A DNA stretch of 64,000 nucleotides. It comes from Chloroflexota bacterium. GTDB lineage: Bacteria > Chloroflexota > Anaerolineae > Anaerolineales > UBA4823. Shown here piece after piece: positions 2,926 to 31,591 of the stretch. Made by a program: the position numbers and the translations under genes. The stretch is taken from positions 62,001 to 126,000 of the forward strand of contig JAJUJL010000006.1 of NCBI GenBank assembly GCA_029265355.1. The letters run 5' to 3'. The notes beneath the pieces are model-generated. The model worked only from the letters and a program-made list of their open reading frames with translations, was not told the origin of the DNA and did not search any database. Each line of letters begins with the position of its first letter. Within the stretch, counting starts at the first letter, position 1.

Positions 2926-4023
2926 ATGTCCACTTCAACAGTAAACAAAGCCCCTGAAAAGTCCAACAATTTGGTTGGTTTCCTGGTCGGTCTGGCGTTG
3001 GTCGTGGCGCTGGCGTTCGTTGCCCGATGGGCGAAGTACCAGGTGTACGGCGCAACGCTGCCATTTAACATCCCAGGGAAAGTGCTTGAGTATCCGATTT
3101 GGGCTGCATTGATCGGTTTGGTGGCAAACTACCTGCTCAAGCTGTTCAAGGTGTATGACTTTGTCAAGCCAGGATTCCGCACCGAGTTGTTCCTGAAGAT
3201 CGGCCTGATCATGTTAGGTGCTGGGATCAGCTTCAAGGTAATCGTCACGGCTGCTGCCGGAGCCATTGTGCAAGGCGTGATCATGGTATCTGCCGTGTAT
3301 TTCTTCTCCTGGTGGTTAGCAGGAAAATTCGGCCTCCCGGATACGCTGCGCGCCGTGATGTCCACCGCCATTTCGATCTGCGGCGTCTCTGCGGCGATTG
3401 CTTCGGCTGGCGCAGTGCTTGCCAAGAAGGAAGAGATCACCTATGTCACTGCCCTGGTGATTGTCACGGCGTTGCCTTTGATGGTGATCGCTCCCTTGAT
3501 TGCCCAGGCCATTAACCTGCCCGAGCCAGTTGCGGGTGCATGGTTTGGCGGCAACGTGGATACGACCGCGGCAGTTGTGGGCGCCGGCACAATCTACGGT
3601 GAGACTGCCCAGAAAATTGCCAGCATTGTCAAGCAAACCCAGAATGCCCTGATCGGTGTGGTGGCGTTCGTGTTAGCGCTGTACTTCTCCACAGTGGTGG
3701 AAGGCAAGAAGGAACGCCCCAGCGCGATGATGATCTGGCATCGCTTCCCGAAATTCGTTCTGGGCTTCATCGTCGCCTCGCTCCTTTACACTTTCGGGGT
3801 AATTGTCAGTGGTTCGGATGGCGCCAAAGCTATCGCAGGTATGAAGGACTGGTTCTTTGCCCTGGCCTTCGTGTGCATGGGTCTGGAGCTCTCCGTGTCC
3901 GAATTCAAGAAGATGGGCTGGTCGCCAGTGATTGTGTACCTGATTGTCACCGTCTTCAACACGCTGCTGGCGCTGCTCGTTTCGTGGATTATCTTCGGCT
4001 ATTTGATGCCAATTAATCTGTAA
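2926..4023 (+). CDS. YeiH/UPF0324-family putative sulfate/sulfite exporter
   Basis: This 365-aa polytopic membrane protein has about 10 hydrophobic helices. The conserved glycine-rich core segments (around GLIMLGAGISFKVI, FGLPDTLRAVMSTAISICGVSAAIA and GAWFGGNVDTTAAVVGAG) are typical of the Cons_hypoth698 / YeiH family. Members are annotated as putative sulfate exporters, and a few have been linked to sulfonate or sulfite movement. Its place just before dsrA argues for movement of a sulfur oxyanion: either uptake of the electron acceptor or relief of sulfite stress. The direction and the exact ion are not shown by sequence. Confidence 0.85.
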   Translation: MSTSTVNKAPEKSNNLVGFLVGLALVVALAFVARWAKYQVYGATLPFNIPGKVLEYPIWAALIGLVANYLLKLFKVYDFVKPGFRTELFLKIGLIMLGAGISFKVIVTAAAGAIVQGVIMVSAVYFFSWWLAGKFGLPDTLRAVMSTAISICGVSAAIASAGAVLAKKEEITYVTALVIVTALPLMVIAPLIAQAINLPEPVAGAWFGGNVDTTAAVVGAGTIYGETAQKIASIVKQTQNALIGVVAFVLALYFSTVVEGKKERPSAMMIWHRFPKFVLGFIVASLLYTFGVIVSGSDGAKAIAGMKDWFFALAFVCMGLELSVSEFKKMGWSPVIVYLIVTVFNTLLALLVSWIIFGYLMPINL

Positions 4024-4151: not shown

Positions 4152-5336
4152 ATGACTGAAAGCGAGACCCCCTTGCTGGACGAACTGGAAAAAGGTCCCT
4201 GGCCCAGCTTTGTCACCGAGATGAAGCGCGCTGCCAAGAAGAAAGAGTCGGCGCACGACTTGCTGCGCCAATTGGAGCGCTCCTATAACGATCGTATTGG
4301 ACACTGGAAGCATGGGGGCATCGTGGGCGTAAGAGGCTACGGTGGCGGTGTGATCGGTCGCTATTCGGATTTACCGGAAGAATTTCCAGGAGTGGCCGAG
4401 TTCCATACACTGCGCGTCAACATGCCATCTGGTTGGTTTTACACCACCGAGAAGCTGCGCCAGCTATGCGACGTTTGGGATAAGCACGGCAGTGGGTTGA
4501 CCAATCTGCATGGCGCGACCGGCGACATCATCCTCTTAGGAGCGCCGACCGAAGCGCTACAACCCTGTTTCGACGATCTGGCAGAGATTGGTTTCGACCT
4601 GGGCGGCTCAGGCAGCGATATGCGCACGCCAAGCTGCTGCGTTGGTCCAGCGCGCTGCGAATACGCTTGCATCGACACCCTGGAGGTGCTTTACCAGATA
4701 ACGATGGAATTCCAGGATGAGCTTCACCGCCCGATGTTCCCCTACAAGTCGAAAATCAAAATTTCTGGCTGCCCCAATGATTGTGTGGCTGCCATTCCGC
4801 GCTCGGATATCGCAGTGGTTGGCACCTGGCGGGACAACATCCAGGTCGATCCGGCTGCGGTGGCAGCTTATGCCAATGATGGCATCGATATCCAGGAAGA
4901 AGTCGTTGATCTTTGTCCTACCCAATGTATGCACTGGGATGCTTCTACAAAGACTTTGACGATAGAGGATCGGGAATGCAATCGCTGTATGCACTGCATT
5001 AACTTGATGCCGAAAGCGCTCGCGGTGGGAAAGGAGCGTGGGGCGACCATCCTGGTAGGAGGCAAGGCTCCTATCGTTCACGGTGCGCTGCTTTCCTGGG
5101 TGGTGGTGCCATTCATGAAAATGGAACCGCCGTATGACGAGTTCAAGGACCTGGTGCGGCGTATCTGGGAATGGTGGGATGAAAACGGCAAGATGCGTGA
5201 ACGCCTGGGCGAGCTGATCAACCGCATGGGCATGCGCGCTTTCCTCAAGGCGATGAATTTGCCGCCTTCACCCGCGATGATACGCGCCCCACGCGCTAAT
5301 CCTTACTATTTCTGGGATCCTGAGGAGGTGAAATAA
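4152..5336 (+). CDS. dsrA: Dissimilatory sulfite reductase, alpha subunit
   Basis: DsrA, together with DsrB, reduces sulfite at a coupled siroheme-[4Fe-4S] centre in the cytoplasm and passes the sulfur to DsrC. The cluster motif is present: C163-x5-C169 with C207-x3-C211. An inserted ferredoxin domain follows, with C255 and the C276-x2-C279-x2-C282 group. At 394 aa it is somewhat shorter than the roughly 430-440 aa of deltaproteobacterial DsrA. The start follows GGAGGTA. Its stop overlaps the dsrB start by one base, preceded by GAGGAGGTG, so the two subunits are translated together. DsrD, DsrC and DsrMK follow. Confidence 0.97.
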
Positions 5337-6397
5337 TGGCGACCCGAACAGACTTCGGCCCTCCGTATTACAAAGATATGCTACCTCCCATAATTGAAAA
5401 AAATTATGGGAAGTGGAAGTACCACGAGCGGGTTAAGCCAGGCGTATTGCGGCACGTAGCCGAATCTGGTGAAGAGATCTACACCGTGCGGGTTGGCTCT
5501 GGACGTTTGGTCAGCACTGAGTGGATCCGCGAAGTGTGTGAGATTGCTGATCGCTTCTGTGAAGGACATCTGCGGTTTACCAGCCGCCATAACCTGGAAT
5601 TCCTGGTCTCGGATGCAGAGAAGGTCGAGCCATTACTGGCGTACTTGAACGAACACAATTACCCGGTTGGCGGCACGGGGCATGCCATCAGCAACCCGGT
5701 GCACACCCAGGGTTGGATCCACTGTCATACACCGGCTACGGATGCTTCTGGCATTGTCAAGGCGGTGATGGATGACCTGTATGAGTATTTTGTTGACTGG
5801 AAGCTCCCCGCCTATTGCCGCATTTCTTTGGCGTGTTGCTTGAACATGTGCGGGGCAGTGCATTGCTCTGATGTGGCGATCTTGGGTATCCATCGCAAGC
5901 CGCCGCACATTGATCATGATATCGTACGCGCCAAATGTGAGATCCCCAATGTCATTGCAGCTTGCCCCACTGGCGCAATTCGCCCCGATCCAAAGAATAA
6001 AACGCTGACTGTCAACGAAGAGAAGTGCATGTACTGCGGCAACTGCTATACCATGTGCCCAGGCATGCCCCTGGCAGATCCGGTCGGTGATGGGGTTTCC
6101 ATCTGGGTAGGCGGAAAGATTTCCAGCGCACGCTCTGCTCCAAAGTTCTCACGGCTGGCGATCCCCTTCTTGCCCAATAATCCCCCTCGTTGGCCAGAGG
6201 TCACCAGCGCGGTGCGCAATATCGTCGAAACCTGGGCCAGAAATGCCCGCAAACACGAACGCATGGGCGAGTGGATCGAGCGTGTCGGCTGGGAACGCTT
6301 CTTTGAGCTGACTGGCATTCCGTTCAGTGTGCAGTTGATCGATGATTTCACCCTTGCGCCTGAGACCTATCGCTCTACGCCAACATTCAAGTGGTAG
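5336..6397 (+). CDS. dsrB: Dissimilatory sulfite reductase, beta subunit
   Basis: This is a 353-aa subunit. The catalytic siroheme-[4Fe-4S] ligands C130, C167, C168 and C172 keep the spacing of characterised DsrB proteins (x36, adjacent pair, x3). A ferredoxin domain carries C210P and the C231-x2-C234-x2-C237-x3-C241 set. The siroheme-contacting basic residues in the N-terminal half ([12 protein letters not shown]) are present. DsrB bears the functional active site of the alpha2-beta2 enzyme, so this protein should be active. It lies directly after dsrA with a TAATG overlap. Confidence 0.97.
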
Positions 6398-6466: not shown

Positions 6467-6679
6467 ATGGCAGACGAAGTAACTGAAGAGATCAAGACGC
6501 AAATCATCGATTTCTTCAAGCAAAAGAACAAGATGTTAACCAGCCGGGATGTTGCCAGCGGCTTGAACCTGGAAAACCGGGTGGTCAAGAAGGCGCTCAC
6601 AGAACTGGTGAATGCAGGCTTACTTGAGTTCACCTCATTTGGAGGGGCAACCTTCATCAAGCTACCTGAAGGTAGCTAG
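6467..6679 (+). CDS. dsrD: DsrD winged-helix protein
   Basis: This is a 70-aa protein starting at MADEVTEE. It has the compact winged-helix fold of DsrD, with the central segment ENRVVKKALTELVNAGLLEF as recognition helix and wing. DsrD is typical of organisms that use Dsr in the reductive direction and has been reported to stimulate DsrAB activity. It is encoded 69 bp behind dsrB, as in sulfate reducers. The ATG at 6467 was chosen over an upstream in-frame ATG (6434) because it matches the family N-terminus and has a nearby purine-rich ribosome site. Confidence 0.93.
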   Translation: MADEVTEEIKTQIIDFFKQKNKMLTSRDVASGLNLENRVVKKALTELVNAGLLEFTSFGGATFIKLPEGS

Positions 6680-6760: not shown

Positions 6761-7078
6761 ATGCCGGTTGTTGAGTTGAAAGGCATAAAAGTCGAAGTTG
6801 ATGAAGATGGCTTCATCCAGGAACCTGATTCCTGGTCGGAAGAGCTGGCTGCTGCCATTGCGTTGACCGAAGAAGTCGAGACGCTCACAGAGGATCACTG
6901 GAAAGTTATCCACTACCTGAGGGATTACTATCAGCAATTTGGCATCGCTCCCATGATCCGGAAACTGTGCAAAGACACAGGGTTCCAGCTCAAATACATC
7001 TATGAGCTTTTCCCCAGCGGACCCGCGAAGGGCGCGTGCAAGATTGCCGGATTGCCCAAGCCGACCGGATGTGTTTGA
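6761..7078 (+). CDS. dsrC: DsrC sulfur carrier protein
   Basis: This is a 105-aa TusE/DsrC protein with the flexible C-terminal arm ending GACKIAGLPKPTGCV. Both redox cysteines are present: C93 and the penultimate C104, at the same spacing as canonical DsrC. It can therefore form the trisulfide intermediate with DsrAB and be reduced by DsrMK, and it is not merely a TusE-like thiouridylation protein. The ribosome site is AAGGAGG. It lies 81 bp behind dsrD, beyond a GC-rich stem. Confidence 0.97.
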   Translation: MPVVELKGIKVEVDEDGFIQEPDSWSEELAAAIALTEEVETLTEDHWKVIHYLRDYYQQFGIAPMIRKLCKDTGFQLKYIYELFPSGPAKGACKIAGLPKPTGCV

Positions 7079-8116: not shown

Positions 8117-9565
8117 ATGGCCAAGTTCGATGAAACACCGATTGTCAAAGATGCTGCGAAAAACGGGGTTTTAGCGCCCCCGGAACTGCGGGAGCATGCC
8201 AGCAGCCGGGTGCGCTGCTGGCCCAGCAAAGCCAAAGACACCATACCGATTGGCTTGCCGCCCGAGCGTGTGCCGGACTGGCAGGAACGGGCGATTGCAA
8301 AGTTTGGTGAACTGCTGGAGCGGAACAAGGCGCTGCGTGTGTATATGGATATCTGCGTGCGCTGTGGTGCATGCACCGACAAGTGCCAGTTTTTCCTGGG
8401 TACTGGCGACCCTCAGAATTTCCCGGTAGCGCGCGCCGAGCTGATGCGCAAAGTCTACCGCCGCTATTTTACACCTGGGGGGCGCTACCTGAGGGATGCG
8501 AGCGAGGCAGCGGATTTCGATGAGGAGATGCTGGAGAAATGGTACACCTATTTCTACCAGTGTTCCGAATGCCGCCGTTGCTCGGTGTTCTGCCCGTACG
8601 GCATTGATACTGCTGAGATCACTATGGCTGCCCGCGAGATTCTCTGCAGCATTGGCGTCTCTACCAAGTATGTCACCGAGGTGGTTGCCAAAGTATATGA
8701 GACTGGTAACAACCTGGGAATCCCGTCTGCAGCGTGGAAGGACAACTGCGAGTTCCTGGAAGACGAGCTGCAGGAAGAAACCGGATTGCCCATCCGCTTC
8801 CCAGTGGATGATTATGGCGCTGAAGTGTTGCTGGTGCCTCCCTCAGCGGACAACTTTGCCAATGTGGATACGATGATCGGATATGGAAAGCTGTTTCATG
8901 CACTCGGCATACGCTGGACAACCAGCACCTATTGCAACGAGGGCGGCAACTTTGGTTTATTTTTGAATTATGCCAATCTCAAACGAGTCAATAAACGCAT
9001 TATCGATGCAGCCCGTATGCTGAATGTGAAAACGATCATCTGGGGCGAGTGCGGGCATGCCTGGCGAGGAGGTGTGCTCACACCCACGCTTAACGGGCCG
9101 ATGGATATGTTTGATCCACCTTATCCTTATCACATCAGCCAGTTTATCGTCGATATGCTCAATAAAGGCGCGCTGAATGGCAAAATCGATAAATCGGCAA
9201 ATGATCAATACCTGGTGACCTATCATGATCCGTGCAATCCTGCGCGCGCCGGGCAACTGTTAGAGGAGCCGCGCCAGATTTTGCGGGCGTGTGTCAATCG
9301 CTTTGTGGAGATGCCAGCCAATACCATTCGGGAGAAGACATATTGCTGCGGAGCTGGTGGGGGATTGTTGACGGACGAGGTCATGGCCATTCGCATGGCG
9401 GGCGGTAAGCCGCGCGCCATGGCGGTGAAGCACAGTGGAGCCAATTTCCTGGCGACGATTTGCGCCATCTGCAAAGCGCAATTGCCCGAAGCGATGAAGT
9501 ATTGGAAAGTTGATGTGGAAGTTGGCGGTGTCATTCAACTCTTGGGAAATGCGCTGAAATTGTGA
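8117..9565 (+). CDS. dsrK: DsrK, HdrD-like iron-sulfur catalytic subunit
   Basis: This is a 482-aa protein. Two [4Fe-4S] motifs (C80/C83/C86/C90 and C149/C152/C155/C159) are followed by two CCG domains (key segments ECGHAWRGG, YHDPCNPARAG, YCCGAGGGL and CAIC). These CCG domains build the special cubane cluster used by heterodisulfide reductases. DsrK is the proposed site where the DsrC trisulfide is reduced in the cytoplasm, with electrons from DsrM. It has no signal peptide, as expected. A paralogue lies at 18368. Confidence 0.95.
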   Translation: MAKFDETPIVKDAAKNGVLAPPELREHASSRVRCWPSKAKDTIPIGLPPERVPDWQERAIAKFGELLERNKALRVYMDICVRCGACTDKCQFFLGTGDPQNFPVARAELMRKVYRRYFTPGGRYLRDASEAADFDEEMLEKWYTYFYQCSECRRCSVFCPYGIDTAEITMAAREILCSIGVSTKYVTEVVAKVYETGNNLGIPSAAWKDNCEFLEDELQEETGLPIRFPVDDYGAEVLLVPPSADNFANVDTMIGYGKLFHALGIRWTTSTYCNEGGNFGLFLNYANLKRVNKRIIDAARMLNVKTIIWGECGHAWRGGVLTPTLNGPMDMFDPPYPYHISQFIVDMLNKGALNGKIDKSANDQYLVTYHDPCNPARAGQLLEEPRQILRACVNRFVEMPANTIREKTYCCGAGGGLLTDEVMAIRMAGGKPRAMAVKHSGANFLATICAICKAQLPEAMKYWKVDVEVGGVIQLLGNALKL

Positions 9566-9615: not shown

Positions 9616-9912
9616 ATGCGAAAAATGGCATTGCTCCTGGTGGTGATGGCAGCGCTCGTGTTGACGGTGATTTACTATCCGCGCTATGTGGAAAAGCCGG
9701 TCAAGGATGGTGATGGCCCTCTGGCCGTCTATATCAGCCCCCGCTACACAGCGCCAGAGTTCCACAGCCCGCTGGAATGGTACCAACGGTATCACAAGGA
9801 TGCACTCAACCGTGGAGACTTGATCCAGTCGGATTGTCTCTACTGCCATGAGCCTGAAAAATCCTGCAACAATTGTCATGCGTATGTTGGCGCCGCCGCG
9901 ATCCAGCCATGA
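9616..9912 (+). CDS. dsrJ: DsrJ-like cytochrome c, shortened to two hemes
   Basis: This 98-aa protein has an N-terminal signal/anchor helix (residues 4-20). Two c-heme sites follow, C74-LY-C77-H78 and C84-NN-C87-H88, in the context CLYCHEPEKSCNNCHAY, which matches DsrJ. Canonical DsrJ is a triheme protein with a third CxxCH close behind this segment. Here the frame ends 10 residues after the second heme, and no third site appears in any frame before the next gene. Position behind dsrMK supports the name. The missing heme is a real departure from the family. Confidence 0.82.
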   Translation: MRKMALLLVVMAALVLTVIYYPRYVEKPVKDGDGPLAVYISPRYTAPEFHSPLEWYQRYHKDALNRGDLIQSDCLYCHEPEKSCNNCHAYVGAAAIQP

Positions 9913-9928
9913 CTTTGGAGAGAAAAGT

Positions 9929-10393
9929 ATGCGTGAGACCCACGATCGTGAAGAACTGCAAGCTCAAAAACCCTCCGTATTCCTTTCTCGGCGGCAATTT
10001 ATCCAGCTTGGTATGGCTGGCTTAGGCGCGGCCTGGGCTGGTACTTTCGTTCAGGCGCGGCTTTTCCCAGCGCAAAGAAGTTCTCAGGAGGCCGTCCCGG
10101 TATCTTTTCCGCTCTCTGAGCTGCCAGTCGGCGCCACAAAGACGGTTACCTTCGCTGGCGTTCCTGTCATCGTGGTACGGACAGCGGTGAGCCTCAAGGC
10201 GTTCTCTCTGGTGTGCACGCACCTGGGTTGCCTGGTGCAGTGGCAACCTGGGAGCATGGAGTTTTATTGTCCTTGCCATGATGGGCGCTTCGATCAGTTT
10301 GGCGAGGTGATTGCCGGTCCCCCACCGGTGCCATTGGAGGAGATCACGGTGACTGTCGATGGTGATCGCGTTGTGGTAGGCGAGGCTGTGTAA
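9929..10393 (+). CDS. Rieske [2Fe-2S] protein with Tat signal
   Basis: This is a 154-aa protein. A twin-arginine signal-anchor (SRRQFIQLG, residues 20-28) precedes a Rieske domain with C96-T-H98-LGC101 and C114-P-C116-H117. C96, H98, C114 and H117 ligate the cluster, and C101 and C116 form the usual disulfide. It should face the outside of the membrane and take electrons from a quinol-oxidising subunit or from DsrJ. Rieske genes are not part of standard dsrMKJOP operons. The start at 9929 is preferred to an earlier in-frame ATG that lies inside dsrJ, because it gives a proper Tat leader after GGAGAG. Confidence 0.92.
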   Translation: MRETHDREELQAQKPSVFLSRRQFIQLGMAGLGAAWAGTFVQARLFPAQRSSQEAVPVSFPLSELPVGATKTVTFAGVPVIVVRTAVSLKAFSLVCTHLGCLVQWQPGSMEFYCPCHDGRFDQFGEVIAGPPPVPLEEITVTVDGDRVVVGEAV

Positions 10394-10455
10394 TGGTGAG
10401 ACAAAGTAATCTCTTCGCTGAGAGATCGAAAAATTTATCCAGGAGGCTGATAAAT

Positions 10456-10836
10456 ATGGCGACAGCCTGGAAAGTATGGCTCTGTTTATTGGCGATTTTT
10501 ATCGTGGCGCTGGTGAGCTTTGGGCAGCCGAATGCCACTGTGCGAGCCCTTCCAGAGTATTCAGCGCAGGTCGGTGAACCGTGCGCAACCTGTCACGTCA
10601 GCCCATCGGGAGGTGGTCCGCGCGGGCCGCGTGGCACTGCCTGGGTGGCGTCTTCTAAGCCAGGCGCAGTGCCCGATCTGCTCCAGGCATTGGAAATCCT
10701 GGGCGTCAGGCTGACGGTGGACCCGCTCGAATATCGCGCTGTAACGCAAGAGATTGACTCTGCCGCAGCGCCAGAAAAGACTTCTATCCCCTCGGCGGAA
10801 CTGCTGGAATACTTGCGCGATTACGAAGGAAATTGA
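10456..10836 (+). CDS. Monoheme cytochrome c, membrane-anchored
   Basis: This 126-aa protein has a hydrophobic leader (residues 5-23) and one heme site, C43-AT-C46-H47, followed by a Gly/Pro/Arg-rich loop (SPSGGGPRGPRG). The remainder is helical without further metal motifs. The ATG at 10456 follows AGGAGG; an earlier ATG at 10393 is less likely. It sits between the Rieske gene and the molybdopterin-fold subunit, so it probably relays electrons on the periplasmic side of the same complex. Confidence 0.85.
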   Translation: MATAWKVWLCLLAIFIVALVSFGQPNATVRALPEYSAQVGEPCATCHVSPSGGGPRGPRGTAWVASSKPGAVPDLLQALEILGVRLTVDPLEYRAVTQEIDSAAAPEKTSIPSAELLEYLRDYEGN

Positions 10837-10838
10837 GC

Positions 10839-13253
10839 ATGCCGGACAATCTGGATCTAAAGAAACCATCAGACAGCAGCGTAACGCGGCGCGACTTCAT
10901 CAAGATCGGCGCGACCGCTGCAGGTGTTGGCGCAGCACTTTGGGCGGGTAGCCGGCTACAAAAAGGTTCTGGCGTGAGTTCCGGGCCAGCCGGTGGAGCT
11001 GCCATCGCGGCGCAAAGCATGGAAGAAAGCCTGGTGCGCACAGCCTGCGCCATGTGTCCCGCAGGGTGCGGCCTGGAAGTGCGGGTGGTGGGCGGAAAGG
11101 CGGTGAAGGTTGAAGGAAACGCTATCCATCCTCTGAACCAGGGCGTTTGCTGCCTGAAAGGCCAGGCTTCCCTGGAGGTATTGTATAGCCCGGAGCGCAT
11201 TCGAAATCCCTGGCGGCAATTGGGTGCTCGTGGATCTGGCGATTGGGAAGAGATTTCCTGGGACGAAGCCATTGACCTGGTGGTAGAGAAGCTTGTTGCG
11301 CTGCGTCAGGCAGGTAAGCCACACAGCCTGGCATTGGTGCACGGAGAGCTGCGCGGCGAAATGCGTGGCCTGGTGAATCGCTTCATGCAAGTGTATGGCA
11401 GTCCGAATACCATCTCAACCTCCAGTCTGGGCGAGCAATCCGTGCGCCTGGCTTCGTACCTGACCCAGGGTGTGAATGGCCTTCCCGTCTATGACCTGAA
11501 TAACGCCAGCTATGTGATGGCTTTTGGCGGCAACCTGCTGGAATCCAGCCGCCATGTGATCAGCTACCTGGGATCCTTGGCTTTTATGCGCCGCGGTCGG
11601 CCTCAACGAGGAAAACTGGTTGCAGTTCATCCGCGGTTATCTTTGACTGGCATCAAGGCAGACGAATGGGTGCCTATTCGCCCGGGAACCTATGGGGCAT
11701 TGGCTCTGGGCATGGCCAATGTGATCATCAACAGCAACCTGTACGACCAGGATTTTGTGCGTGACTTTACCTTCGGCTTCGAGGATTTTGAGGATGCCGC
11801 CGGGAATTTACACAAAGGGTTCAAGAGCCTGGTGCTGGAAAGATACACGCTGGAGCGGGTGAGTGCGATCACGGGCATTGCTGGTGAAACGATCGCCCGC
11901 CTGGCAGGCGAGTTTGCCACGAACCGCCCGGCGGTTGCCATGCTGCCCACGGAGCCCGGAGAGCTGGGAAGCGGCAATAGCCTGTATTCTGCCATGGCTA
12001 TTCACAGCTTGAACGCCCTGGTCGGGTCGATCGATGCCCCGGGTGGTGTTTTGGTGCAGCGCTATCCAACGCTGGCGGAATGGCCAGAAATCAGCCTGGA
12101 TGGTACCGCGCTCACGGGGTTGGGGCAACCGCGCATCGATGGCGCGGGCCAGGCTGATATTCCCCTGGCGCTGTCTGCCTTGCAGCAGCTCCCTGATCGC
12201 ATTCTGCATGGCGAGCCTTACCCTGTGGAGGTACTGCTCCTGCTCAATGCCAACCCTGTATATGACCTGCCGCAAGGAGGGCGCACCGCTCAAGCGCTTC
12301 TGCAAGTGCCGTTTGTGGTCAGTTTCGCTTCAACGCTGGATGAAAGCGCTGCGCATGCCGACTTGATTTTACCGGCCAGCACATTCCTGGAGGTGTGGGG
12401 GGATGACTTTATGGAAGGGACGGGTTATGCTGGGGTGACGCTGCGCCGCCCGGTAGTCGAGACGTTGCACAATACGCGCGATCCGGGTGATGTTTTGCTG
12501 GCGCTGGCCAAGCACGTCGGAGGTGGGCTGGCTGAAGCGTTGCCCTGGAAGAGCTATTGGGAGCTGGTGCGTTATCGCTTATCAGCAATCGATACGGACT
12601 GGGAAATCTTCGAGAGCAACGGTAATTGGTCCGAAATGGTTTACTTCAACGCCTCCCCTGGCAGCGCCGCCTGGAATCGAGTCGTGGGAAGGGATCGTCG
12701 CCTTTCCCCAAAAGATGGTCGATACGACTTTTTCTCTCGCGAACTGTACTCACTGTTGGCCAACCCCCGTGACGAAGATTGCCTGCCGCATTTCGAATTA
12801 CCGGCGACCCTGGAAGATGTAGGGGAATTCGCCCAAGAATACCCGTTCTTGTTGGTGTCCCAAGCGCTGATCACGCAATCCCAGCATTGGCAAGGGGTTG
12901 TACCCACGCTGCAAGAAGCATACGGGTTGCAATCTCACGCGCGCTGGACAAGCTGGGTGGAGATGAACCCCCAGGCAGCAGAAGCCTTGGGTCTGGAAGA
13001 GAATGAAGTGGTGTGGATCGAGTCGCAATTTGGCAGGGTGCAGGCGCCGGTGCGCTTCTACCCCGGTTTGTGGCCGAATGCTGTTTTTCTACCAGCCGGT
13101 CTCGGGCACTCGAGCCGCGTGAAGTGGGGACGGGGTTCACCTGAGGCACTGGTGGTGGGAGTGAACCCCAATGTGCTGGTCCACATGCAAAGCGAGCTGC
13201 TGAGCGGGCAGGCGGCTTTCAACCCCACTCGGGTGAAAATTTACAAGGCTTAA
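10839..13253 (+). CDS. Molybdopterin oxidoreductase-family subunit, QrcB-like, with Tat signal
   Basis: This 804-aa protein carries a Tat leader (TRRDFIKIG, residues 17-25) and an N-terminal [4Fe-4S] site (C70-x2-C73-x3-C77, then C104 or C105). Molybdopterin-oxidoreductase domains follow, ending with the C-terminal dinucleotide-binding domain. At the usual Mo-ligand position, where PhsA/PsrA proteins have a cysteine after SPN...H, this sequence reads SPNTISTSSLGEQ (188-200) and lacks Cys or Sec. That recalls QrcB and ActB, which keep the fold but no molybdenum. Together with the following ferredoxin and NrfD subunits it should form a quinone-interacting periplasmic module. It is unlikely to be a catalytic sulfur reductase. 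Confidence 0.85.
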   Translation: MPDNLDLKKPSDSSVTRRDFIKIGATAAGVGAALWAGSRLQKGSGVSSGPAGGAAIAAQSMEESLVRTACAMCPAGCGLEVRVVGGKAVKVEGNAIHPLNQGVCCLKGQASLEVLYSPERIRNPWRQLGARGSGDWEEISWDEAIDLVVEKLVALRQAGKPHSLALVHGELRGEMRGLVNRFMQVYGSPNTISTSSLGEQSVRLASYLTQGVNGLPVYDLNNASYVMAFGGNLLESSRHVISYLGSLAFMRRGRPQRGKLVAVHPRLSLTGIKADEWVPIRPGTYGALALGMANVIINSNLYDQDFVRDFTFGFEDFEDAAGNLHKGFKSLVLERYTLERVSAITGIAGETIARLAGEFATNRPAVAMLPTEPGELGSGNSLYSAMAIHSLNALVGSIDAPGGVLVQRYPTLAEWPEISLDGTALTGLGQPRIDGAGQADIPLALSALQQLPDRILHGEPYPVEVLLLLNANPVYDLPQGGRTAQALLQVPFVVSFASTLDESAAHADLILPASTFLEVWGDDFMEGTGYAGVTLRRPVVETLHNTRDPGDVLLALAKHVGGGLAEALPWKSYWELVRYRLSAIDTDWEIFESNGNWSEMVYFNASPGSAAWNRVVGRDRRLSPKDGRYDFFSRELYSLLANPRDEDCLPHFELPATLEDVGEFAQEYPFLLVSQALITQSQHWQGVVPTLQEAYGLQSHARWTSWVEMNPQAAEALGLEENEVVWIESQFGRVQAPVRFYPGLWPNAVFLPAGLGHSSRVKWGRGSPEALVVGVNPNVLVHMQSELLSGQAAFNPTRVKIYKA

Positions 13254-13297
13254 CTTGTTTATGGACGGATTGAAACACGAGGATCATGGAGGTAGGT

Positions 13298-13984
13298 ATG
13301 CCCCGTTGGGGAATGGTGATCGACCTGGATAAGTGTTTTGCCTGCCAAAGCTGCACAGTGGCTTGCCGCATGGAAAACAACACCCCGGTTGCTGGGCCAG
13401 ACCAGGCTGGCAAGGGCAGGGCGATTTTATGGAATGAGGTGTTGCCATTCATCGAGGGGGAATATCCTCGCCTAGTGGCTACCATGATACCCAGGCCTTG
13501 TATGCATTGCGATTATCCGCCGTGTACCAAGGTCTGCCCGGTCAGGGCAACTTATAAGAACGAGGAAGGTATTGTGGTGGTGGACTACAACCGCTGCATT
13601 GGTTGCCGCATGTGCACGGTCGCCTGTCCCTATGGGGTGCGCTATTTCAACTGGTTTCCACCGGAATGGCCTGAAGAGTTGAAGCAGCACCTCAATCCAG
13701 ATCCAGAAGTGGCGCCGCGACCGAAAGGCGTGGTTGAGAAATGCAGCTTTTGCATCCAACGCCTGCACAAAGCACGCCAGAAAGCTGACGCGGAAGGCCG
13801 GGCTTTCATGGCCACCGATTATATCCCGGCCTGTGTACAGACCTGTACCGGGCATGCCCGCTACTTTGGCGATCTGGATGATCCGACGAGCCTGGTGCAC
13901 CAACTGGCTCACAGCCCCAGGGCTTTTCGCTTACTGGAGGAACTGGGCACAGAACCCAAGGTGTATTACCTTAAGCAAGGTTAA
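13298..13984 (+). CDS. Four-cluster ferredoxin subunit (QrcC/PsrB/DsrO type)
   Basis: This is a 228-aa protein with 16 cysteines in the four-cluster pattern. The first set is C13/C16/C19/C23. The CMHC...CTKVCP, CIGCRMCTVACP and CSFC groups follow. It links the molybdopterin-fold subunit to the membrane subunit. It has no signal peptide, so if periplasmic it must be exported together with the Tat-bearing partner, as in PsrAB and Qrc. DsrO proteins normally carry their own Tat signal, so this is closer to QrcC or PsrB. The ATG at 13298 follows GGAGGTAGGT. Confidence 0.9.
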   Translation: MPRWGMVIDLDKCFACQSCTVACRMENNTPVAGPDQAGKGRAILWNEVLPFIEGEYPRLVATMIPRPCMHCDYPPCTKVCPVRATYKNEEGIVVVDYNRCIGCRMCTVACPYGVRYFNWFPPEWPEELKQHLNPDPEVAPRPKGVVEKCSFCIQRLHKARQKADAEGRAFMATDYIPACVQTCTGHARYFGDLDDPTSLVHQLAHSPRAFRLLEELGTEPKVYYLKQG

Positions 13985-14022
13985 GCACAGAAAACTGGTT
14001 GTGGTATCAACCGGGGTGAAGC

Positions 14023-15357
14023 ATGCATCCTGAAAATAAAAATGAGACTGTCATCCTGAACCCGCTGCGAAAAGTTGGCCTGGCGGACAAATTGCTCTGG
14101 GCTACGCTCCTGGGGCTGCTGCTGCTTGGCATTGGCGTTTGGATACGCCAGTATGTGCTGGGATTGGGCATAACCGGTCTGAACCGACCGGTATATTGGG
14201 GTGTTTACCTGACCAACTTTGTGTTTTTCATCGGCCTGGCGCATTCGGGTACATTCATCTCCGCAATTTTGCGCCTGGCCGGGCAGGGTTGGCGCAAACC
14301 GCTGACGCGAGCCGCTGAAGCCATCACGCTCTTCAGTCTGCCATTCGGCGTGGCTTCTATCCTGGTCGATATGGGGCGCCCAGACCGGATTTTGAACCTG
14401 ATCTGGTTTGGCCGGTACGAGTCGCCAATTTTGTGGGATGTGACTGCGGTAGGCCTGTATCTGCTCTCCAGCATCGTGTTTTTCTATTTTTCCCTGATCC
14501 CAGATATCGCGCTGTGCCGAGACCGCCTGACTCAGGCGCCTGGATGGCAGCGGCGCATGTACACTATCCTCGCGCTGGGCTGGCGTGGCACACCGCAACA
14601 GTACCACCGCCTGGAACGGGTGTTGGATGGCATGGCAATTTTCATGACCATGCTGGTGGTGACAGTGCACACTGTGGTTTCCTGGCTATTTGGTATGACC
14701 CTGCAGCCCGGTTGGCATACAGCTTTGATTGGTCCATTCTTCTTGCTCGGCGCAATTCTGTCTGGCACCGCCGCAGTGGTCATCGTGCTGGCAATCCTGC
14801 GCAAGGTTTATCGCTTTCAACATGTCTTGCCTGTTAGCCTGTTCAATTCGCTGCGCAAACTGTTGATCACCTTTTTATTGGGCTGGCTGTATTTCATGAT
14901 TGCCGAGCACCTGACCATCGGATATGGAAACATGAAAGAGGAGATGGTCGTGCTCCAGGATAAGTTCAGCGGAAACTACGCCCTGATCTTTTGGAGCATG
15001 GCGGTATTGGTCTTCGGCGTACCCCTGTTGATATTCCTGATCAAGGGTAAAGACAGCATTGGCTGGATGGTCCTTGCCTGTGTACTGATCAATATCGGTA
15101 TGTGGATGGAACGTTACATTGTGATTGTGCCGACGCAGATCAGCCCACGCCTGCTCAGCGTATCGGGACAGGGGATCTACCTGCCAACCATGACAGAGGC
15201 GCTGATCACAGTGGCTTGCTTCGCAGGATTTACCCTGTTATATGCTGTCTTTACGCGGTACTTCCCCATCGTACCAGTGTGGGAAACGGCGGAATCGTTG
15301 CCGGTAGGGCACGAGGCTGAGCCAGCGCTTCAAACCGGGTCCGCAACAGCAGATTGA
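14023..15357 (+). CDS. NrfD-family quinone-interacting membrane subunit
   Basis: This 444-aa protein has about ten transmembrane helices and the NrfD/PsrC/DsrP architecture. It should bind menaquinone and exchange electrons with the preceding ferredoxin subunit, possibly coupled to charge movement. It occupies the dsrP position in the cluster, but its immediate partners (molybdopterin-fold subunit, signal-less ferredoxin) are those of Qrc- or ACIII-type complexes. The family is clear. The choice among DsrP, QrcD and ActC needs a tree. Confidence 0.9.
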   Translation: MHPENKNETVILNPLRKVGLADKLLWATLLGLLLLGIGVWIRQYVLGLGITGLNRPVYWGVYLTNFVFFIGLAHSGTFISAILRLAGQGWRKPLTRAAEAITLFSLPFGVASILVDMGRPDRILNLIWFGRYESPILWDVTAVGLYLLSSIVFFYFSLIPDIALCRDRLTQAPGWQRRMYTILALGWRGTPQQYHRLERVLDGMAIFMTMLVVTVHTVVSWLFGMTLQPGWHTALIGPFFLLGAILSGTAAVVIVLAILRKVYRFQHVLPVSLFNSLRKLLITFLLGWLYFMIAEHLTIGYGNMKEEMVVLQDKFSGNYALIFWSMAVLVFGVPLLIFLIKGKDSIGWMVLACVLINIGMWMERYIVIVPTQISPRLLSVSGQGIYLPTMTEALITVACFAGFTLLYAVFTRYFPIVPVWETAESLPVGHEAEPALQTGSATAD

Positions 15358-15373: not shown

Positions 15374-15514
15374 ATGGACATTGGAAATTTGCTATCCACT
15401 TTCTTCAAATCTGCCGGGCCAGGCGGCGCGCTAGCGACACTGGTGCTGAGCGGAGCGTTGCTATTGTATATCTTTCTGGCGCGTTGGATCATCGGCGATG
15501 ATCAACAACAATAA
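15374..15514 (+). CDS. 46-aa single-span membrane peptide
   Basis: An ATG at 15374 lies six bases after GGGAGG and opens a 46-codon frame that ends TAA at 15512-15514. The peptide starts MDIGNLLSTFF and has one hydrophobic helix (about residues 18-38), then a short charged tail ending DDQQQ. It follows the NrfD gene by 16 bp and precedes the monoheme repeat protein. It may be a small accessory subunit like ActD/ActF-type or Nqo-type peptides. No family is recognised. Confidence 0.65.
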   Translation: MDIGNLLSTFFKSAGPGGALATLVLSGALLLYIFLARWIIGDDQQQ

Positions 15515-15569
15515 AGACGAATATCTGCACAATGCTGGGAAAATGCTCAATCTTGAAGAGAGTAAGACT

Positions 15570-17699
15570 ATGAAACGTTGGTGGAACCTCTGGTTGTTTG
15601 CGCCGCTGCTGTTGATCCTGTTAAGCGCTGGACTCGCCCTGTCGAGCGATGCACATCGCGTTCGAGCTGCTCCGCCCATGCAGGCTGCCGGTGGAACGGG
15701 CGCGCGGTTTGCCGCTGAGGCGGGCAACTATTGCATCGGTTGCCACTCTGCAGATGACGCTGTGCTTCAACAAGCCATCGAATGGCGCGGCGGTGTGCAG
15801 ATGCAAGCGGTCAATCCTTGCCCGGCGATCCATACCATCGAGGAGCAGCTCTATTTCACTGAGCGCTTGATGCGAGCCATCCGCAGTTTACGCTCGCAGC
15901 TCCCCGACTCCGCCGCGACTCTGGCTTGGGAGGCGCGGTTCAGTGCGGCGGAACAATCGTATGGGCGACTGTTGGATATGCCGGTCACCAGCCTGGATGC
16001 ATTCGTCTCTGAGTCTCAAACCCTGCGCTATCAGATGGGGAAAATTTATGCCGGATTGAATGAAATCCAGGAAGCCTTGAGGGTGCAACGCATTTTGATC
16101 TGGGCCGGTATCGTTTCTGCAGTGATGTTGGGCTCGTTGATTTGGGGATACCTGAACTCGCTCCGGCTGGCGCCGGCAACGCGCTCTCTGCAGGGCATCA
16201 AGGCCAGTGGGCTGATAAAACCAGGGTTGCTTGTTTTGTTGATCTTCGCCCTGTTTTTACTGCCCATATTCCGTGATTTTCCAGCGCCAGTGGCAGCAGC
16301 CAGCGAGCGAGAACAGGAGAAGCAGCTCACTTTGGATGAGAGTTCGCGCGCTGCTACGGCGGCTGAACGAGCTGTCGCTCGTTCGTGGATGCTAGGTAGA
16401 ATTGGGGCGCGCTGGGCTGGCAATGATCCAGCGGCTGCAAATGAAATCCTCGCCGCTGCATTAGAGGCATCTGCTGAAGCGCAATTGAATGCGGCTGCGC
16501 TGTGGGGAGAGATGCTGGCCGCGCAGGAGGCTGCAGCGGGCTCAGCGGTGGACCAGGAGAAGGCGGCTCTGATTGCCGCCAGTTTGCAATCTGCGCAATC
16601 GCGGGTTTGGGGTTTGCGCATGATGGCGGAAGACTGGATGACGGTCGATACCCAGCGTGGGCAGGAACTGCTTGAGAAGGCTGTCGCGATGGCGGAGACA
16701 GGTTCGGGAATTTACCGCGACCTGGATTTAAGGGCGATAGCCGCCAGTTACTCTGGGATTGACTTACAGCGTTCTCTGGAGATCATCCACCGCATCGCTG
16801 ACCCTTTTGTGCGCGCCTGGGGATATCGAGAAGTAGCGATAAAAACTGGCAATCAGCAGTTGCTCGAAGAGGCATTGGCCACTGCCTCCCTGGTAGAAGA
16901 CCAGGTTCTTCGGGTTTACGCATTGACGAAGATTGCCGCGCTATTGGCGGATCCGAGTGTACATGAGGTGGCTTATCGTAGCCTGGAGGGTCTTCAGGGA
17001 GCGAGTTTGGCATACTCCCTGGCGAGATTGTCCGCAGCGTCTGGAAAGGTGGATTGGGTTGCCCAAATCGATAGAGACTATCCAGCGGCTGTGGCGTGGG
17101 CGTACTCTCGCCTGGGTGAATGGGCTGCAGCTTGGGATGCGGCTGTCCAAGTCGATGACCCCTTCGAGCGGGCTGCTGCGCAGGCTGCGATTGCCAGCGC
17201 ATGGGGCAAGGTTGAGAAAGCGCGTGAAATTGAGGTGCCGTTTTACCGCGACCGATCCTTGCGCATTGTCATGCAAATGACAGGAGATGTGACACTGGCG
17301 TCGGAAATTCAAAACAGCTATGATCGTGCGGTGGCCCTGGTAGCAGTTGGCGCGTACCAGGATGCTCTGGCGGTGGAGGGTTTGAAAGAGACGTATCCGT
17401 TGGTGGTGGCGGGTGTTGCCCTGTCTAAGGACGACCCTGCCCAGACGCAAACCATCCTGGAGCGCTTGCAACGCGAGGTGGATAAATCCGTTGTGCTGAA
17501 CGCCCTGGCAGGGGTAGACAGCGATGCACAATTCTTCACGGAGGCCCTGGATTTCGCGCTGGCTGCACGCAAGCGCGGTGATCCCCTGGCACCGATTATG
17601 GCTTCGCTGGACCTGGCTGAGGCGGTGAAAGACCCAGAATTGAGGGCACAGGCGCTGCAGCAGGCGCTGCAAGTGGCTGAAAGGATCGCAATCAAATAG
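15570..17699 (+). CDS. Monoheme c-type membrane protein with long helical-repeat domain
   Basis: This is a roughly 709-aa protein. It has an N-terminal signal helix (residues about 6-25), then one heme site CIGCH near residue 55 in a helical domain. Two membrane helices follow (about 175-195 and 210-230). The remaining ~450 aa are built from Ala-rich helical hairpins like TPR or HEAT repeats, and are probably extracytoplasmic. I know of no named family with this layout. It lies between the NrfD module and the second DsrMK-like pair, so it may be the electron-entry or docking subunit for that pair. The start at 15570 gives a proper signal peptide. Confidence 0.7.
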   Translation: MKRWWNLWLFAPLLLILLSAGLALSSDAHRVRAAPPMQAAGGTGARFAAEAGNYCIGCHSADDAVLQQAIEWRGGVQMQAVNPCPAIHTIEEQLYFTERLMRAIRSLRSQLPDSAATLAWEARFSAAEQSYGRLLDMPVTSLDAFVSESQTLRYQMGKIYAGLNEIQEALRVQRILIWAGIVSAVMLGSLIWGYLNSLRLAPATRSLQGIKASGLIKPGLLVLLIFALFLLPIFRDFPAPVAAASEREQEKQLTLDESSRAATAAERAVARSWMLGRIGARWAGNDPAAANEILAAALEASAEAQLNAAALWGEMLAAQEAAAGSAVDQEKAALIAASLQSAQSRVWGLRMMAEDWMTVDTQRGQELLEKAVAMAETGSGIYRDLDLRAIAASYSGIDLQRSLEIIHRIADPFVRAWGYREVAIKTGNQQLLEEALATASLVEDQVLRVYALTKIAALLADPSVHEVAYRSLEGLQGASLAYSLARLSAASGKVDWVAQIDRDYPAAVAWAYSRLGEWAAAWDAAVQVDDPFERAAAQAAIASAWGKVEKAREIEVPFYRDRSLRIVMQMTGDVTLASEIQNSYDRAVALVAVGAYQDALAVEGLKETYPLVVAGVALSKDDPAQTQTILERLQREVDKSVVLNALAGVDSDAQFFTEALDFALAARKRGDPLAPIMASLDLAEAVKDPELRAQALQQALQVAERIAIK

Positions 17700-17711
17700 G
17701 ATATCGAATCT

Positions 17712-18350
17712 ATGGCAGCTAATTGGATTTGGATCACACGTTGGATAGCGGTAATCGGGCTGGCAATTGGAGCTTTGGGGATCATATCCCGTTTGCAAGC
17801 GATCTTGAGCCGGCCTTTCAAGCAAGACCTGGCGCGACCGCGGGGCTCTATCCGCAGAGGGGTACTGTATGCTTTCACCCTGGGCATGGCGCCTTGGGAA
17901 AAAGAGAGCACCCGCCTGCACTGGCTGGCATATTTTAGAGGCATATTCTTCCACCTGGGTGTGTTCGCTGCCTTTGCGGTGCTTTTTGCCAGTCCCTGGT
18001 TGGCAGCAGCGCCTGGCTGGTTGCTTTGGGTGGCGCGTATATTCACCGGCGCTGGGGCGGTATTTGGCGTCGCCGGGATACCCATGCGTTGGATAGGCGA
18101 AAATGAGCGCAATTTGAGCACTCCAGATGATTACTTCGCTGTTTTGTTGACCTCTATATTCACCGCATTGGCCTTTGGCGTGTTGGTCGAAGCAGCTTTG
18201 CTGCCCATCTTTTACCTGGCAACTGCACTGCTTGCGATCTACATCCCGTTTGGCAAGATCCGGCACTGTGTCTACTTCTTCTTCTCGAAATTTTTCTTTG
18301 GGCTCACGTTTGGACGGCGAGGGGTTATCGGACAACCCGACGCGTCCTGA
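17712..18350 (+). CDS. DsrM-like (nitrate reductase gamma-like) membrane subunit, second copy
   Basis: This 212-aa protein has about five hydrophobic helices. Histidines in LHWLAYFRGIFFHLGVF and near the end in KIRHCVYFF are possible heme b ligands. Its size and its position directly before a DsrK-like gene mark it as the membrane partner of that protein. It is clearly diverged from the DsrM at 7361. HdrE- or TmcC-like roles are also possible. Confidence 0.8.
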   Translation: MAANWIWITRWIAVIGLAIGALGIISRLQAILSRPFKQDLARPRGSIRRGVLYAFTLGMAPWEKESTRLHWLAYFRGIFFHLGVFAAFAVLFASPWLAAAPGWLLWVARIFTGAGAVFGVAGIPMRWIGENERNLSTPDDYFAVLLTSIFTALAFGVLVEAALLPIFYLATALLAIYIPFGKIRHCVYFFFSKFFFGLTFGRRGVIGQPDAS

Positions 18351-18367
18351 TCTCGTTGAGGTATAGA

Positions 18368-19708
18368 ATGACAGACAACGGCAAGTTCACTGATGAACGT
18401 TTTCAGCTAACCGATGAGAAGACCGCTATCGCTTTAGATGTTCTCAGGAAGCGATTGAATCGCCAGCTTGACGCTGCTCTAGAAGTATGCGTTCGCTGCG
18501 GTCTGTGTGCCGATTCTTGCCACTATTATGTCGCCAACCCCAAACCAGAGCATGTGCCAGCTTTCCGAGCTGAACAACTGCGCAAGGTTTATCGCCGTTA
18601 TTTCGATCCCATCGGCAAGTTGGCGCCGGGTTGGGTAGGAGCGGCGGAACTCGATCAAGAGATGGTCGAGAAGCTGATCAATGCTGCTTTTGGTACGTGT
18701 ACGATGTGTGGCCGCTGTGTGATCAACTGCCCGATGGGAGTGGATACGCGGCAGATCATTCGCACTGCCCGAGCCATGCTGACCGCCATCGATATGACCC
18801 CCGAGGGGTTGAAAGCGACCGTCAACGTTCACCTGGAAGCAGGCAACAATATGGGGGTGAGCGAAGAAGATTTTGTTGAAACATTGGAGTGGATGGAAGA
18901 AGAGCTGCGAGCGGAGCTGGGTGATGCAAGCATCAAGATCCCGATCAATAAACCGCATGCCAGGGTGGTGTACACCTTCAACCCGCGGGAAGTCAAGTAT
19001 TTCCCTTATCTGATTCAAGCCGCGGCCAAGATTTTCAATGCTGCTGGCGAAGATTGGACGTTATCTACCGAAAGTTGGGATGCGACCAATTATGGACTGT
19101 TTTCTGGCGATGACGAGGCCAGTCGCAAGATCGCCAGCAATCTGGAAGCTGCGATCAACCACCTTGGGGCGGATGTGTTGGTGATGGCGGAATGCGGGCA
19201 TGGCTACCGATCGCAGCGCTGGGAAGCCGAGAACTGGCTCGGGCGGGCCTATCCATTCAAGGTGATGAGCTTTGTCGAGTTGCAGGCGCAATATATTCGC
19301 GATGGGCGTATTCGGCTGGATGCATCGGTCAATCCGAAGCGGGTGACATACCATGATCCGTGCAACCAGGCGCGCAATGGCGGCATCATCGACGAGCCGC
19401 GCTATATTCTCAAGCACGCAGTGATGGATTTTGTTGAGATGGAGCCGCATGGAGCAGAAAACTTCTGTTGCGGTGGGGGCGGGGGCATGCTCTCGATGAC
19501 CGAATTTGCCAAAGATCGCATCGCGGCTGGGAAGGTGAAAGCAGATCAAATCCTGGCAACCGGTGCAGAGATCGTGGCAACGTCTTGCCACAACTGCCTT
19601 GATCAATTGGATGAGATCCGCCGGCACTACAAATTGAAGGTGAAGATCCAGAATTTGAGCGAGCTGGTCGCTGCGGCGATCATCTGGCCCAGGCAGAGTG
19701 GTGAGTGA
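18368..19708 (+). CDS. DsrK/HdrD-like iron-sulfur protein, second copy
   Basis: This is a 446-aa protein. Two [4Fe-4S] motifs (CVRCGLCADSC and CTMCGRCVINCP) are followed by CCG-domain segments (ECGHGYRSQ, YHDPCNQARNGG, FCCGGGGGML and CHNC). The order and spacing parallel the DsrK at 8117, so this is a paralogue. It likely forms a DsrMK-like unit with the gene before it. The substrate may be a different disulfide, or it may deliver electrons to DsrC under other conditions. The ATG at 18368 was chosen for its closeness to GAGGTATAG. Confidence 0.9.
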   Translation: MTDNGKFTDERFQLTDEKTAIALDVLRKRLNRQLDAALEVCVRCGLCADSCHYYVANPKPEHVPAFRAEQLRKVYRRYFDPIGKLAPGWVGAAELDQEMVEKLINAAFGTCTMCGRCVINCPMGVDTRQIIRTARAMLTAIDMTPEGLKATVNVHLEAGNNMGVSEEDFVETLEWMEEELRAELGDASIKIPINKPHARVVYTFNPREVKYFPYLIQAAAKIFNAAGEDWTLSTESWDATNYGLFSGDDEASRKIASNLEAAINHLGADVLVMAECGHGYRSQRWEAENWLGRAYPFKVMSFVELQAQYIRDGRIRLDASVNPKRVTYHDPCNQARNGGIIDEPRYILKHAVMDFVEMEPHGAENFCCGGGGGMLSMTEFAKDRIAAGKVKADQILATGAEIVATSCHNCLDQLDEIRRHYKLKVKIQNLSELVAAAIIWPRQSGE

Positions 19709-19741: not shown

Positions 19742-20119
19742 ATGAAACTCAGTGAAAAAACGGTATTGATTGCCGCAACTTTCGGTCCTGATCATGTGGA
19801 AAGAACCCCCGCGCCATTTCTGTTTGCCACAGAGGCAGCCCGCATGGGCGCCAGGGTGGGAATCTGCTTTGTATTGCAGGCCCCGCGGTTATTGAAGCGG
19901 GGAATGGCAGAAAACCTGGCCGCAAAACCGGGCGGGCGGACGATCCGTGAATTCATCAACGAAGCCCTCGCGGCTGGCGTCACCTTCTATGTCTGCGATG
20001 CTGCTCTTGCGCTTTGCGATATGACACCCGAGGACCTCATCGAAGAGGTGGATGATTTGGTAGGACCGAGCTTTTTGATCACTCAGGGTTTGGATTCGGA
20101 TCTGGTGTTGAGCTTTTAA
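19742..20119 (+). CDS. DsrE-family protein
   Basis: This 125-aa protein has the DsrE/F-like sulfur-relay fold. A buried beta-strand start (TVLIAATFG) is followed by a Cys in YVCDAAL (C85), at the usual position of the sulfur-binding cysteine, and a second one at C92. No dsrF or dsrH follows, so this is not the DsrEFH complex of sulfur oxidisers. It is more like the stand-alone DsrE-type proteins found beside sulfur-transfer genes. It could handle persulfide sulfur from or to DsrC. Confidence 0.8.
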   Translation: MKLSEKTVLIAATFGPDHVERTPAPFLFATEAARMGARVGICFVLQAPRLLKRGMAENLAAKPGGRTIREFINEALAAGVTFYVCDAALALCDMTPEDLIEEVDDLVGPSFLITQGLDSDLVLSF

Positions 20120-20142: not shown

Positions 20143-20343
20143 ATGTACATCGTAACCATCGATATTGAAAAATGCAAGGCATGTGGTGATTGCGTCGAGA
20201 ACTGTGCAGTACAAGCGCTGGCGATTGTCGAAGAAAATGGCAAAAAGTTCGCTATGTTCACCGGCAATCCTGACGACTGCCTGGGTTGTCTTTCCTGCGA
20301 AGAGGTTTGCGAAGAGGGGGCTGTCACGGTCACGGAGTATTGA
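20143..20343 (+). CDS. 2[4Fe-4S] ferredoxin
   Basis: This 66-aa protein has two cluster motifs: C11/C14/C17/C21 and C46/C49/C52/C56. Each set binds one cluster with the proline-less ends CVENCAVQ and CEEVCEEG. It starts after TGGAGGTAGT and lies 24 bp behind the DsrE-like gene. It is probably an electron donor for DsrAB or for the DsrK-type proteins. Confidence 0.9.
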   Translation: MYIVTIDIEKCKACGDCVENCAVQALAIVEENGKKFAMFTGNPDDCLGCLSCEEVCEEGAVTVTEY

Positions 20344-20345
20344 CC

Positions 20346-30785: not shown

Positions 30786-30788
30786 CCT

Positions 30789-31460: not shown

Positions 31461-31488
31461 TAACCCAGCCGAGTCAAATGATGTTTGT

Positions 31489-31509
31489 CACATACACGGG
31501 GGGTATGTG
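31489..31509. promoter_or_regulatory. Inverted repeat between the siroheme operon and hemL
   Basis: CACATAC (31489-31495) and GTATGTG (31503-31509) flank a seven-base G-rich spacer. It lies between the start of the met8-like gene and the hemL promoter, where a regulator could control both directions. Confidence 0.4.
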
Positions 31510-31591
31510 TCAGGTTTCAATGGGAATTGGTCGAGTTCTACGTTTGCGAGCTTTGCTTTCAGTCATCTGTCTCAATCATGCATTTCGCAGA

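Follow-up and report, generated by a model that had tools for sequence, protein, structure and literature searches.

It is still an open question in sulfur respiration how quinones, periplasmic carriers and DsrC are coupled by DsrMKJOP. Alternative complex III (ACIII) is a functional substitute for the bc1 complex. Its ActB subunit has been described as taking part in aerobic respiration only (PMC10100899). Qrc, an electrogenic complex, works reversibly (PMC6303296); its QrcB subunit is reported to lack a redox cofactor, and Y113 of QrcC is essential (PMC13059093). As to Chloroflexota, a Dehalococcoidia cell carrying dsrABCMK and no dsrJOP has been reported (PMC4959651), and a chimeric Chloroflexi dsr system has been described in passages from which the module reported below is absent (PMC10504309).

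The window, i.e. the whole stretch of 64,000 nucleotides analysed here (contig JAJUJL010000006.1, positions 62,001 to 126,000), belongs to a Chloroflexota genome of 5.05 Mb, 98% complete. A conserved cluster on one strand (2926 to 23154; Table 1) opens with a YeiH transporter gene and closes with a HemA-like gene. Within it, dsrM, dsrK and a dsrJ-like gene are followed by genes encoding a Rieske protein, a monoheme cytochrome, a large subunit of the molybdopterin (MopB) fold, an iron-sulfur (Fe-S) protein and an NrfD-family protein. The initial annotation of the window had set these five genes behind dsrJ in place of dsrOP, tightly spaced and in one direction, and this layout has been found as described, since neighbouring genes from dsrM through NrfD overlap or are spaced by 50 bases at most. 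The cluster is larger than then noted: dsrD lies upstream, and further along there are a cytochrome/solenoid protein and a second pair resembling DsrMK, both downstream. The arrangement had also been presented as undescribed, and no account of it has been found in the open-licence full-text literature, supplements being outside this scope. This variant of the DsrMKJOP complex is real and conserved and apparently undescribed, its composition and conservation being well supported. With moderate confidence, the locus may be read as a reductive dsr system in which a Rieske protein and a monoheme cytochrome, together with an unfused trio resembling ACIII and Qrc, have taken the place of DsrOP.

Subunits of the module behind dsrJ

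The predicted fold of the MopB protein (predicted local distance difference test score 87) matches ArrA (template modelling score, TM, 0.80) and PsrA, and a pterin-binding domain is recognized (PF01568, 51 bits). Among family models QrcB ranks best (305 bits, cut-off 440), followed by PhsA and ArrA. The Cys which ligates molybdenum in PsrABC and ArrAB is missing, as initially noticed. Gly occupies the position in the window, Gly, Ala, Asp, Ser or Asn across orthologs and nearest relatives, and the position is deleted in two loci (L135 and L198). Every dsr-linked MopB retains the [4Fe-4S] motif with its four Cys. Because the ligand residue is variable or deleted while the cluster motif has been kept, catalysis is strongly argued against, and the subunit is very likely non-catalytic. 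In the MopB tree, which like the NrfD tree was built without characterised QrcB or QrcD sequences, the dsr-linked proteins form one clade (support 100/100), with the standalone sets that carry a two-heme cytochrome as its sister group. They do not group with PsrA, nor is another molybdenum ligand found among them.

Arsenite oxidase (AioA) binds molybdenum without a protein ligand and pairs with a Rieske protein, hence loss of the ligand alone does not prove that MopB is free of pterin. According to this view, MopB would be a catalytic molybdoenzyme with the Rieske protein as small subunit, acting on a sulfur oxyanion or a metalloid. The full fold with its pterin-binding domain and the retained [4Fe-4S] motif are compatible with the idea, which is nonetheless very improbable: the ligand position varies in close orthologs, the MopB and Rieske proteins score far below the cut-offs of the AioA model (21 bits, cut-off 359) and of the AioAB Rieske model (28.5 bits, cut-off 95.65), and the Fe-S and NrfD partners are foreign to AioAB. 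A molybdoenzyme has been dropped as the leading interpretation because of the variable or deleted ligand, which does not by itself prove a molybdenum-free state.

The Fe-S subunit, which has the 16 Cys residues and lacks the signal peptide as initially annotated, is best matched by the QrcC model (269 bits, cut-off 400), and ActB is the nearest among solved structures. Its third Fe-S motif is complete, and a Tyr lying between Cys residues (CPY) is apparently at the place of the essential QrcC Tyr. The protein is presumably exported together with MopB, which carries a twin-arginine translocation (Tat) signal. The closest solved structure to the NrfD protein is ActC (E 9e-63 to 6lod chain C), and the protein is of the ActC type, being 32-34% identical to ActC and 21-24% to DsrP. 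In contrast to DsrP, it retains all 13 listed residues of the ActC proton half-channel on the cytoplasmic side (N-side), and E394/R395 in addition. At the quinone site, two of four residues differ (His139 to Asp, as in DsrP; Asp253 to Leu). No match to the QrcD model is seen at E 0.01. The initial assignment of the last three genes to Qrc or ACIII stands as kinship, but NrfD is ActC-type and not QrcD-type. NrfD proteins diverge more than their MopB partners (window and L140, 42% against 65% identity; L140 and L073, 43% against 76%), and in the NrfD tree dsr clusters fall into two ActC-like subclades, in conflict with the MopB tree. The comparison of sequences indicates that the NrfD gene is exchanged within the slot.

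The gene at the dsrJ position encodes an altered protein, and not the standard DsrJ first assumed. It is shortened, matches no NCBIfam or Pfam model, and carries two CXXCH motifs. Canonical DsrJ is a triheme protein with a His/Cys-ligated heme; its hemes 1 and 2 are matched in the alignment, whereas the axial Cys is replaced by His and the third CXXCH is gone. Neither this Cys nor the third motif occurs in any relative with this type of cluster that was aligned. The Rieske protein has the usual disulfide-bearing motifs, yet reads CHDGRF where high-potential proteins have CHGS.Y, and lacks the Ser and Tyr which raise the potential. Because of this replacement a lower potential is likely, from what is generally known of Rieske proteins. 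The monoheme cytochrome corresponds in alignment to the N-terminal half of the two-heme cytochrome of the standalone sets, and both end in Gly-Asn.

Recurrence of the module and other occupants of the slot

Orthologous clusters were collected from relatives, from named Chloroflexota metagenome-assembled genomes (MAGs), Anaerolineales among them, and by a class-wide search with the DsrK model, in which 15 of 396 genomes score above the cut-off. Adjacent dsrJ and Rieske genes have been identified in 16 Chloroflexota genomes (the window, L070, corresponding to G023, L037, L071, L072, L128, L129, L130, L131, L132, L134, L135, L136, L137, L139 and L140) from at least five families (f1, f12, f45, f53, f59, plus the named MAGs). 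The genes are not scattered in relatives, and the linkage initially read in a single locus is upheld. The adjacency lies on a single contig in 12 of the 15 strong-DsrK genomes. In G170 one contig ends past dsrJ and another starts inside the Rieske gene (L138, L197). G189 hosts a divergent dsr locus without the module (L127), where a DsrJ-like protein has an extra C-terminal domain and no Rieske module behind it (L127:5560-6354), and a standalone set elsewhere (L199). About 11 Rieske genes reside in the window genome, yet the placement after dsrJ recurs in five families, and is therefore not due to chance, by a rough estimate which ignores shared ancestry.

MopB/Fe-S/NrfD sets with cytochromes also exist without dsr in relatives (L038, L039, L076, L199). 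Standalone sets of a pentaheme cytochrome, MopB, Fe-S and NrfD proteins, Qrc-like and found outside Desulfobacterota, occur in Chloroflexota and Planctomycetota (L076:9167-14758, L077:9417-14510); the cluster motif of the L077 MopB has no fourth Cys.

None of the 19 Chloroflexota dsr genomes has a protein above the DsrP cut-off (best 85 bits, cut-off 350), and the model gives 490 bits in the Desulfosporosinus control. The window NrfD scores 96 bits, lies apart from DsrP in the tree, and is not of the DsrP type. A Tat-exported DsrO is also missing from the cluster, the Fe-S protein having no signal and scoring 185 bits (cut-off 200). A candidate DsrO elsewhere in the window genome (C4, L050:9086-11187), a Tat-signal Fe-S protein with 216 bits, has been rejected, as it is paired with an NrfD of the QrcD/HmcC kind and neighboured by multiheme cytochromes rather than by dsr. 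Since it passes the cut-off all the same, the NCBIfam DsrO model can over-call DsrO. In addition, C46 (L053:9493-14276) holds an Hmc-like set made of a DsrK-like protein (307 bits), a membrane protein, an Fe-S protein and a 608-residue NrfD with a fused six-heme domain.

Canonical DsrMKJOP is found in other Chloroflexota (L202, with a triheme DsrJ of 157 bits and a DsrP of 395 bits, and L203), and two dsr membrane systems thus exist within one phylum. A third arrangement has been identified in G451 (locus L200), which belongs to another class. Here dsrA, B, C, M, K and a two-heme dsrJ are followed by genes for a Rieske protein, cytochrome b6 (PF00033, 180 bits) and subunit IV (PF00032, 78 bits), the dsrJ, Rieske and cytochrome b genes overlapping; a split cytochrome/solenoid protein, a second DsrM/DsrK pair and CbiA come next. 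One slot accordingly hosts three modules, DsrOP, Rieske with cytochrome b6 and subunit IV, and Rieske with cytochrome and MopB/Fe-S/NrfD, all of which we take to have a quinone site on the periplasmic side. At the same place behind the Rieske gene one finds either an ACIII-like set or a set with cytochrome b. A Rieske tree joining the two types gave no resolution, the alignment being too short. The version of the other lineage, whose slot holds Rieske and cytochrome b, suggests where the Rieske protein belongs. We infer that the slot takes interchangeable quinone modules of the periplasmic side, wired to DsrMKJ.

Alternatively, though this is unlikely, the module could be an independent Qrc-like menaquinone reductase, sharing an operon with dsrMKJ without contacting DsrJ. 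Periplasmic hydrogenases or cytochromes would be the donors, via the monoheme cytochrome or the Rieske protein, and DsrMK would use the menaquinol. The scores of the QrcB and QrcC models, the standalone sets and the electrogenic, reversible nature of Qrc fit this possibility, which is at odds with the ActC type of NrfD, with the separate, dsr-tied clade of MopB and with the lack of a multiheme QrcA or cytochrome c3 in the cluster; moreover, the missing DsrP makes the slot a replacement rather than an addition.

Proposed function and neighbouring genes

The dsrD gene, a marker of reductive dsr operons, has been identified in the window (PF08679 match at 6491-6670, corresponding to C12:68491-68670; 27.7 bits, cut-off 24.2) and in all 12 tested genomes of this dsr type, the cytochrome-b lineage included. 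No AprA is above the cut-off in the genomes searched. Because dsrD is present and AprA absent, sulfite rather than sulfate is likely the acceptor. The same data speak against an oxidative run, which is improbable. In this scheme electrons would move from DsrC thiols to DsrK, DsrM and menaquinone, and through NrfD and the Fe-S subunit to the cytochrome or Rieske protein and a higher-potential acceptor, sulfur being oxidised or disproportionated. ACIII and Rieske/cytochrome b complexes are quinol oxidisers, and the cluster encodes a DsrE-family protein. For DsrMK and DsrN of Chloroflexi, a sister position to oxidative types has been reported (PMC10504309). However, DsrE is single, no full DsrEFH or DsrL occurs in the cluster, and Chloroflexota have been judged reductive (PMC10591310).

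In the favoured reductive system, the module would take over from DsrOP the quinone chemistry of the periplasmic side. NrfD would exchange electrons with menaquinone at the periplasmic face, and take protons from, or return them to, the cytoplasmic side. Electrons would pass from the Fe-S subunit to the [4Fe-4S] cluster of MopB, then to the monoheme cytochrome and the Rieske protein, and would finally reach the two-heme DsrJ, the subunit expected to contact DsrMK; as sulfite is reduced, DsrK would act on the trisulfide of DsrC and reduce it. Of all these points the direction of electron flow is the least secure: oxidation of menaquinol with DsrJ as the destination and Qrc-like reduction of menaquinone from periplasmic donors are about equally likely.

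Some points weigh against this system. The likely co-transcription of dsrMKJ and the module is no proof of a single complex. The potential of bc-type Rieske proteins is usually far above that of menaquinone, and such a potential would be awkward for sulfite reduction. The cytochrome-b version of the slot rests on one genome, DsrK of the G451 kind being found in one of 29 genomes of that class, where the other DsrK carriers have canonical or partial sets. In G289 (L133/L196) the Rieske gene is not beside the module; since runs of N flank the break on both sides, it may be an assembly effect.

The Rieske reading frame opens at 9848, within dsrJ, and the ATG at 9926, preceded by the ribosome-binding site GGAGAG, is a better start; the 804-residue reading of MopB starts at ATG 10839. 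Promoter and terminator scans of the locus did no better than on shuffled sequence. The 733-residue protein behind NrfD has one CXXCH and a further invariant Cys (C108). It matches no family, and Foldseek retrieved only generic helical repeats. Since in L200 the cytochrome and solenoid parts of its counterpart are separate, it may be the cytochrome c of the complex. The second DsrM/DsrK-like pair lies near the module in most clusters with sufficient flanking sequence. Further downstream (29991-32926), genes for a tetrapyrrole methylase, a dehydrogenase of the siroheme synthase type and a HemL-like class-III aminotransferase probably ensure siroheme supply for DsrAB.

Table 1. Genes of the conserved cluster (window positions; aa, amino acids)
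Gene or product	Position	Strand	Basis or remark
YeiH-type membrane transporter	2926..4023	+	PF03601; syntenic in relatives; first gene of cluster
dsrA	4152..5336	+	syntenic homologs in relatives
dsrB	5336..6397	+	syntenic homologs in relatives
dsrD	6467..6679	+	PF08679 above cut-off; upstream of dsrC
dsrC	6761..7078	+	both C-terminal Cys present
dsrM, 250 aa	7361..8113	+	NCBIfam DsrM 157 bits, under cut-off 300
dsrK	8117..9565	+	NCBIfam DsrK 518 bits, above cut-off 400
DsrJ-like two-heme cytochrome	9616..9912	+	alignment; heme motif count
Tat-signal Rieske [2Fe-2S] protein, 155 aa	9926..10393	+	motifs CTHLGC / CPCHDGRFD; PF00355 48 bits
Monoheme c-type cytochrome	10393..10836	+	other possible start 10456
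MopB-fold large subunit, 804 aa, Tat signal	10839..13253	+	[4Fe-4S] motif kept; molybdenum-ligand Cys absent
Four-cluster Fe-S subunit, QrcC-like	13286..13984	+	16 Cys; no signal peptide
NrfD-family membrane subunit, ActC-like	14023..15357	+	structure match, tree, residues
733-aa protein: CXXCH domain, transmembrane helices, alpha-solenoid	15498..17699	+	conserved in cluster
Second DsrM/TmcC/HmcE-like membrane protein	17712..18350	+	
Second DsrK/HmcF/TmcB-like protein	18356..19708	+	
Single DsrE-family protein	19742..20119	+	
CbiA/DsrN-type amidase (siroheme amidation)	20286..21812	+	
HemA-like (glutamyl-tRNA reductase)	21805..23154	+	named from sequence; syntenic in relatives

Comparison with known systems

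There is an even chance that the locus represents a further architecture of sulfite-reduction complexes, in which DsrMKJ is combined with an interchangeable periplasmic quinone module drawn from a Rieske/cytochrome b or an ACIII-like complex, and that the unfused pair of Fe-S protein and [4Fe-4S]-keeping MopB may resemble a precursor of ActB. If the OP half has been swapped twice for other periplasmic quinone oxidoreductases, the role of OP would be periplasmic-side quinone chemistry wired to DsrJ. Surveys scoring dsrMKJOP by DsrP would label such genomes incomplete, and ACIII would gain relatives within sulfite-reduction loci.

As in DsrMKJOP, DsrM, DsrK and then a DsrJ-like cytochrome precede an Fe-S protein of the periplasmic side and a membrane protein of the NrfD family. 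The window differs in having a two-heme DsrJ without the Cys ligand, an ActC-like NrfD and no Tat-exported DsrO, and adds the Rieske protein, the monoheme cytochrome and the MopB scaffold. With QrcABCD the locus shares separate genes for a very likely non-catalytic MopB, a four-cluster Fe-S protein and an NrfD, two of which are best matched by the QrcB and QrcC models, although neither reaches the equivalog cut-off. In contrast to Qrc, the only cytochrome of the module is monoheme, with no multiheme QrcA; NrfD is not QrcD-type, a Rieske protein and the linkage to dsrMKJ are added, and MopB keeps a [4Fe-4S] motif, unlike QrcB. As to ACIII (ActABCDEF), no fused ActB, pentaheme ActA, ActD or second NrfD (ActF) is seen in the window cluster, MopB and the Fe-S protein are unfused, the Cys residues are 16 versus 15 in ActB, and the locus is one of sulfite reduction. 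Shared with ACIII are the ActC-type NrfD with its proton-path residues, an Fe-S protein near ActB, a very likely non-catalytic MopB and a monoheme cytochrome. The bc-type Rieske protein is in common with the bc1 and b6f complexes; the window has an ActC-type NrfD module instead of the cytochrome b of these complexes, and in L200 cytochrome b6 and subunit IV occupy this slot.

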